Shown here: positions 32,360-33,401 of the stretch, one piece after another
Layout: every line of letters begins with the position of its first letter
How positions within the stretch are numbered: position 1 is the first letter of the stretch
Origin: Longimicrobiales bacterium
GTDB lineage: Bacteria > Gemmatimonadota > Gemmatimonadetes > Longimicrobiales > Gaopeijiaceae
Assembly: GCA_951813395.1 (NCBI GenBank)
Contig: OX638356.1
Span: forward strand, 3,608,501-3,672,500
Direction of reading: 5' to 3'
DNA: 64,000 nucleotides
Translations under genes and position numbers: made by a program
Notes under the pieces: generated by a model
The model's database searches: none
The model's input: the letters and a program-made list of their open reading frames with translations, nothing else
What the model was told of the DNA's origin: nothing

Positions 32360-32920
32360 ATGGTTACGATTACGGCCCTCTGGGCCCCGATCCTTCTATC
32401 CGCGCTGGTCGTCTTCGTGGTGAGCGCCATGGTCTGGATGGTCATGCCGCACCACAAGAACGACTTCGCGCGGGCCGACGACGAGGATCGCCTGATGGAC
32501 GCCGTGCGCGACGGCGCGGGCGGCCCCGGCATGTACATGTTCCCGCACGCGCCGGACAGCGAGATGAGCAACGAGGCCTACCGCGAGAGGCTGAAGGCGG
32601 GACCGGTCGGGATCCTTCGGGTTCGGGATCCGCAGAGCGTCCTCGACAGGAAGCCGGCCATGGCCAAGTCGATCCTCCTGTACCTGGTGGTTGGCGTCTT
32701 CGTCGCCTACCTGGCGTCGGTTACGCTGGATTCCGGCGCCTCGTACCTGTCGGTCTTCCAGGTCACCGGCACCGCGGCCTTCATGGCCTACGGATTCATC
32801 GGCTACCAGGAGGCCATCTGGTTCGGACTTCCGGCCTCCGCCGCCTTCAAACACAGCATCGACGGCGTGGGCTACGCCCTTCTCACGGCCGGTATCTTCG
32901 GATGGCTGTGGCCCGCCTGA
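32360..32920 (+). CDS. Four-helix membrane protein of unknown function
   Basis: A 186-residue protein with one N-terminal helix (ILLSALVVFVVSAMVWMVM), a cytoplasmic segment of about 65 residues containing GGPGMYMFPHAPDSEMSN, and three C-terminal helices ending GIFGWLWPA. AAGGAG lies eight bases before the ATG. I have the impression of a conserved bacterial family but cannot name it. It ends 22 bases before the OsmC-family gene, so they are likely cotranscribed. Confidence 0.7.
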   Translation: MVTITALWAPILLSALVVFVVSAMVWMVMPHHKNDFARADDEDRLMDAVRDGAGGPGMYMFPHAPDSEMSNEAYRERLKAGPVGILRVRDPQSVLDRKPAMAKSILLYLVVGVFVAYLASVTLDSGASYLSVFQVTGTAAFMAYGFIGYQEAIWFGLPASAAFKHSIDGVGYALLTAGIFGWLWPA

Positions 32921-32942
32921 CAACCACGGGAGTCTGCCGCAT

Positions 32943-33401
32943 ATGAGCGACATCGTCTACGAAGCCAGCGTCAGGATCGAGCGTGTACGCGGTCCTGAGC
33001 GTCTCGCGTACATCCCCGCCCACGAGGGCCCCGTCGAGTTCGGCGTGCACGGCGCCATCGCCGAGCACTACGGCGTCCGCCCGCGAACCGAGACGTCCAC
33101 AACCCTCGACTACGTGATCGCCGCGACGGGCGGCTGACTCGTCGGCACCTTCGGAGGCGTGCTGGAGGCACGCGGGATCAATGCGTCGGGAGGCAGGCTC
33201 TCGGCGGAAGTCAACGGGAAGGTCGGCAAGGAGGACGGGGTTCTGGTCATCCGGCAAATCCACTGCAAGTACCTGTTGAAGGCGGCCGAAGCGGACGGAA
33301 AGGCCATTCAGCGGGCTTTCGAGCTGCACCCCATGCGCTGTCCCGTCTACCGGACGCTGTATCGATGCATCGAGATCACGACGGAGCTGGCGATCGTATA
33401 G
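32943..33401 (+). CDS. OsmC-family protein with in-frame TGA at the catalytic cysteine; probable selenoprotein
   Basis: A 153-codon frame runs from ATG 32943 (GGGAG ten bases upstream) to TAG 33399-33401, broken only by TGA at 33135-33137, codon 65. The residues before it (TTLDYVIAATGG) and after it (LVGTFGGVLEARGI) are what OsmC/Ohr-type proteins have on either side of the first, peroxidatic cysteine. The second conserved cysteine is intact in MRCPVYRTL near the C-terminus. Reading TGA as selenocysteine gives a full-length 152-residue OsmC protein, presumably a peroxide or hydroperoxide reductase. OsmC-like selenoproteins have been described from marine metagenome data. A hairpin starts four bases after the TGA. 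The alternative is a nonsense mutation or sequencing error splitting a pseudogene. SelA-D genes are not in the window. Confidence 0.8.
33142..33165 (+). promoter_or_regulatory. Candidate bacterial SECIS hairpin
   Basis: Folded by hand, TCGGCACC pairs with GGCGTGCTGG-side bases through a bulged C at 33158 (pairs 49-57, 48-59, 47-60, 46-61, 45-62, 44-63, 43-64 and 42-65 of 331xx), leaving an apical loop TTCGGAG at 33150-33156. Bacterial SECIS elements are hairpins just downstream of the UGA with G residues in the loop; here the loop GG begins 16 bases after the TGA. No folding program was run. Confidence 0.5.

Follow-up and report, generated by a model that had tools for sequence, protein, structure and literature searches.

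A predicted selenocysteine-containing OsmC-like protein of a Gemmatimonadota bacterium and its relatives in other phyla

The locus and its reading frame

The window, the whole stretch of 64,000 nucleotides that was analysed (C1:3608501-3672500), is part of a single-contig, finished 4.09 Mb Gemmatimonadota genome. It harbours a frame of 152 codons with a single internal TGA, 64 codons lying ahead of the TGA and 87 sense codons behind it, at a distance from a Shine-Dalgarno-like site that is given with the other features in Table 1. Read with selenocysteine (Sec, U) at the TGA, the protein is MSDIVYEAS...AATGG-U65-LVGTFGG...HPMRC133PVYRT...AIV and scores 45.9 bits with the Pfam OsmC profile (PF02566; cut-off 27.5). 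Upon alignment of a subfamily profile with solved OsmC-family proteins, residue 65 coincides with the first cysteine of 2opl, 2onf and 1ml8, and C133 with the second cysteine of 2onf and 1ml8, while a phmmer search of the PDB with the single protein sequence gave a chance match only. Ordinary annotation would split this gene in two.

An earlier note on this DNA had described a frame that is intact on both sides of the TGA, flanking residues that match the OsmC family around its first redox cysteine and an intact second redox cysteine, and all three observations hold upon re-reading of the sequence, in the profile alignment and in the relatives, respectively. In its case against a random nonsense mutation the open frame carries little weight; the support comes from the relatives, which retain the TGA. 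Counted over all six frames of this window, whose GC content is 69%, 92 of 1213 TGA triplets possess equally open flanks (at least 64 codons before and at least 87 after), so that the long open frame around codon 65 is weak evidence by itself.

Besides an OsmC of the cysteine type, the same genome encodes a second TGA-containing OsmC protein with the sequence AAAAGULLGTLNGALEVRGI around Sec and the hairpin variant GGCGCACT-GGA-GGTGCGC, which is placed by the tree in a lineage, clade B, apart from that of the window gene.

Table 1. Features of the selenocysteine-containing OsmC-like gene and of related genes in the same genome; positions without a contig name refer to the window.
Feature	Position	Strand	Remarks
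Shine-Dalgarno-like site, GGGAG	32928..32932	+	10 nt 5' of ATG; direct sequence
Predicted Sec-containing OsmC-like gene	32943..33401	+	152 aa with Sec65; stop TAG
TGA codon 65, predicted to be read as selenocysteine	33135..33137	+	at the family's first redox cysteine position
SECIS-like hairpin, 5' arm GCGTGCT	33157..33163	+
SECIS-like apical loop, GGA	33164..33166	+	26 nt past TGA; two G invariant (64 distinct rows)
SECIS-like hairpin, 3' arm GGCACGC	33167..33173	+
TGT codon 133, second (resolving) cysteine	33339..33341	+	invariant, 77/77
Second TGA-containing OsmC, clade B	C1:600584-601030	-	same genome (G000); equals L102:1480-1944 (-)
Cys-type OsmC	C1:800523-800804		same genome
selD (L098)	C1:73954-74880		own in-frame TGA at the usual Sec site, LSHGAGUACKLG

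Conservation of the TGA codon, the hairpin and the selenocysteine machinery

The GTDB species collection provided 80 loci with relatives of 95-45% identity, which belong to Gemmatimonadota, Acidobacteriota, Calditrichota and Acidimicrobiia; TGA is present at the aligned codon in 80/80, and no further internal stop occurs. Among 395 Gemmatimonadota genomes surveyed, 115 gave strong matches, with one TGA in every match listed, a statement that covers the strong matches listed, the codon of some weaker matches lying outside it. Six other Gemmatimonadota genomes have weak matches only (E >= 4e-9), which are stop-free; the frames inspected in three of these genomes encode normal OsmC proteins of the Cys type, on long branches from the Sec clades in the tree. 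The survey of 396 Acidobacteriota genomes retrieved a match in 33 genomes and one TGA in 33 of the 34 matches listed, the 34th lying at a contig end and beginning only beyond the Sec codon, on its 3' side, and a plasmid collection yielded no relative. As far as can be read from the sequences, the subfamily is always Sec wherever the codon is seen, and no close cysteine counterpart turned up in anything searched (Gemmatimonadota, Acidobacteriota, GTDB species relatives, plasmids). Its predicted Sec motif is U-x-x-G-T, with Gly at U+3 in 77/77 and Thr at U+4, and the invariant residues of the alignment are Cys133, P134, T69, G68, R77, R124, D56 and R20. 3' of the TGA, dN/dS against ten relatives amounts to 0.19-0.37.

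One TGA in an otherwise intact frame is also what a nonsense mutation or a sequencing error would leave in an ordinary cysteine OsmC gene, and at such a GC content chance alone often produces long open flanks. A pseudogene or error of this kind is nevertheless improbable in the extreme, ruled out by a TGA that is shared across four phyla by all 80 relatives, and the low downstream dN/dS, the invariant Cys133 and the covarying hairpin described below equally oppose it. Sequencing error is excluded because it cannot recur in 80 independent loci, which settles the concern that resequencing might reveal a cysteine codon. Orthologues without the TGA and with a decayed downstream frame had been named as an outcome that would speak against Sec; the orthologues in sister genomes retain the TGA, with the downstream frame under purifying selection.

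RNAalifold, run unaided on 64 distinct sequences, folds the region downstream of the TGA into a consensus hairpin of 7 bp with the GGA loop. In the counted structure 98.7% of the pair cells are paired, compensatory swaps have replaced C-G by U-A in 5 distinct sequences and G-C by A-U in 7, and both the percentage paired and the covariation score exceed those of all 500 shuffles and of all slid registers. Covariation was used because the folding of single hairpin sequences did not differ significantly from that of shuffles; a Rfam scan of the window gave no match. Mean normalised synonymous entropy is 0.49 in codons 66-79 versus 0.78 elsewhere, Ala73 being encoded by GCG in 46/46 and Leu74 by CTG in 52/53 representatives. 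The swaps link the codon pairs GTG73/GCA76, GCG73/GCG76 and GCA73/GTG76 and would in this way couple synonymous choice at one residue with an amino-acid change at another, a pattern which, we infer, selection on the protein alone would not yield. In the bacterial SECIS consensus (PMC13188914) the stem measures 4-16 bp, the loop counts 3-9 nt and begins with two G, and the spacing is 16-37 nt; stem length, loop and spacing of the hairpin all lie within these limits. Three relatives from the Gemmatimonadota family f7 (L158-L160) do not keep the register and pairing of the common hairpin; in these loci a hairpin shifted towards the TGA, GGGC-GGA-GCCC at a spacing of 18 nt, may take its place.

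The genome encodes tRNA-Sec (selC; anticodon UCA, 79.7 bits), a SelB of 651 aa, selA and selD, so that the complete set of sel genes which the earlier note had proposed to search for was found. Genomes with the gene contain selA in 108 of 115 cases versus 174 of 280 without it (395 genomes; Fisher p 9e-12, uncorrected for kinship), and selA is present in 6/6 genomes holding relatives outside Gemmatimonadota. At E <= 1e-60, selA was not found in seven of the 115 (G211, G339, G377, G146, G334, G348 and G378), which may be due to assembly gaps or an unusual SelA.

A retained in-frame TGA could equally be expected if the codon were reassigned genome-wide, for example to Trp, Gly or Cys, a reading with a negligible chance of being correct: TGA is the own termination codon of the gene in 41/76 relatives and terminates the gene immediately upstream (32360-32920), the very use as a terminal stop that refutes reassignment, and tRNA-Sec, selA, selB and selD are all encoded. 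Somewhat different is the reading that an amino acid other than Sec is inserted at the TGA, or that translation terminates and re-initiates at the GTG at 33159, from where an 80-aa ORF extends, to give two products; in no Sec gene does read-through have to be complete. This is very unlikely, as it is the catalytic residue that is conserved, residues 68-72, encoded after the TGA and before the GTG, hardly vary among relatives, and a SECIS-like hairpin and the Sec machinery are present.

That 32943-33401 encodes a selenoprotein of the OsmC superfamily is thus judged, by comparison, to be close to certain, a grade which applies to the selenoprotein reading and not to an enzyme activity. Shared TGA, hairpin and machinery bear out the earlier proposal of a probable selenoprotein. 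The accompanying claim of a new taxonomic instance holds in part, since the gene is not isolated: it belongs to a widespread subfamily with a second member in the same genome.

Fold, genomic context and a putative redox mechanism

The AlphaFold2 model of the protein (pLDDT 93.6) finds its best matches among solved structures exclusively in OsmC/Ohr proteins, such as 2onf with Z 15.2 and an rmsd of 2.1 over 139 residues, VIA-align 2 matches to non-OsmC folds (Z below 8) having been set aside as generic. Membership in the OsmC superfamily is supported by the fold of the model as well as by the above-cut-off profile score. In the model, Sec65 is part of the long central helix (residues 54-76), and Cys133 immediately precedes helix 134-139.

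In the proposed mechanism, SelB together with Sec-tRNA(Sec) would read UGA65 as selenocysteine because the GGA-loop hairpin 26 nt downstream, inside the coding sequence, would act as a bacterial SECIS. The product is predicted from model and alignment to fold as an OsmC/Ohr-type alpha/beta protein with Cys133 as the redox partner of Sec65 in the central helix. Sec65 might attack an organic hydroperoxide or similar electrophile and reduce it, being itself converted to a selenenic acid; this would form an Se-S bond (selenenylsulfide) with Cys133, which a thiol or dihydrolipoyl donor could reduce again. Reasoning from analogy, we lean slightly towards this cycle.

In the Ohr of Xylella fastidiosa (XfOhr), the very reactive peroxidatic cysteine (Cp) depends on Arg19 and on Glu51, located 10 residues before Cys61 (PMC5962072). 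At the corresponding position 55 (Cp-10) the subfamily has Leu, Ile or Val, followed by the invariant Asp56 at Cp-9, and its invariant arginine R20 is known as a sequence position only. Because the position of the Ohr glutamate is hydrophobic, peroxidase activity, if considered by analogy, is uncertain. Of the earlier designation 'peroxidatic cysteine', the placement of the TGA at the first redox cysteine stands, whereas the word 'peroxidatic' is an inference, the Ohr glutamate being absent and the protein resembling the YhfA/OsmC-like branch. It is a speculative thought that the high reactivity of Sec stands in for the Arg/Glu activation of Ohr.

The genomic context is mostly uninformative. 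No neighbour gene is shared across distant clades, and candidate clusters of shared neighbours proved to be local synteny or antisense frames. In the Acidobacteriota loci L049, L054, L056, L057 and L059 the gene is preceded on its own strand, at a distance of about 45-115 nt, by a protein with AhpC/TSA and DsbD_N domains, for which the Pfam assignment was made in L049 alone. Genes for DUF1223 and DoxX proteins occur nearby in some Acidobacteriota (L042). In two kin of Palauibacter (L031, L032) a NifU/SufU-like gene precedes the gene at a distance of about 1.6 kb, and more apparent SUF genes lie upstream of that one.

Compatible with a selenoprotein, and concerning its activity only, is the alternative that the protein is no peroxidase but catalyses Sec-dependent thiol/disulfide exchange or another redox or detoxification reaction on an OsmC fold. 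The hydrophobic residue in place of the Ohr glutamate and the invariant Asp at Cp-9, as in YhfA-like proteins, favour this alternative, as YhfA forms the one branch that is not counted among the thiol peroxidases (PMC4069020), and several Acidobacteriota have the gene about 50 nt after the AhpC/TSA-DsbD_N protein, with DUF1223 and DoxX near. The same neighbourhood fits peroxide defence equally well, though, and both redox residues are kept, so that we regard the alternative as a serious contender which falls somewhat short of an even chance.

Significance and relation to known systems

Most selenoprotein families exist alongside abundant cysteine homologues, and for this reason it is hard to test why an organism pays for Sec. 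That a subfamily is found solely in its Sec form in several phyla suggests that Cys is no adequate substitute, and such a subfamily offers a clean system for comparing Sec with Cys. The wider reading, on which we are evenly divided, is that of an ancient Sec-only OsmC subfamily of two paralogous lineages without a close Cys form, widespread in Gemmatimonadota and Acidobacteriota, which would be a common selenoenzyme missed by annotation and whose Sec may take over the role that Arg/Glu activation has in Ohr. Annotation may split any gene of this kind into two fragments or omit it. Gemmatimonadota and Acidobacteriota are named neither in the text of the 2022 nor in that of the 2026 selenoprotein review, and a frequent selenoprotein, sometimes two per genome, is here added to phyla absent from that discussion.

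Like bacterial SECIS elements (PMC13188914), the hairpin has a short stem, a GGA loop closed by a U-G or U-A pair and a position within the coding region; unlike them it has its own stem sequence, without a Rfam match in the window. With the Ohr proteins of X. fastidiosa and C. violaceum the protein shares the fold, the first redox residue in the central helix and the second Cys in a C-P motif, but it lacks the Glu at Cp-10 and has Sec instead of Cys; none of the NCBIfam Ohr models recognises it, and the OsmC subfamily model TIGR03562 gives 16.7 bits against a curated cut-off of 85.8. The YhfA/OsmC-like proteins 1ml8, 2onf and 2opl agree in fold, provide the best profile matches and, in 1ml8 and 2opl, have an acidic residue at Cp-9, whereas they possess Cys where Sec is predicted here and are about 14-18% identical.

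An OsmC-like selenoprotein was predicted in 2005 and 2008 from the Sargasso Sea and GOS metagenomes with 3 and 5 sequences, respectively, and the motif UxxT (PF02566/COG1765; PMC1088965, PMC2398784), in agreement with the earlier remark that such proteins are known from marine metagenomes, and representatives appear in the 2022 and 2026 reviews. Published representatives include MBR72571.1 and MCS5647933.1. Both groups combine the OsmC family with Sec at the redox cysteine position and a bacterial SECIS. The published family has many Cys homologues, whereas for the present one no close Cys form turned up in anything searched, and U-x-x-G-T, without Thr at U+3, differs from UxxT. The 2026 review treats different Sec motifs as different subfamilies, and because Gly stands at U+3 and Thr at U+4, the present group would by this rule form a subfamily separate from the published one, set apart by the tabulated motif and not by sequences.
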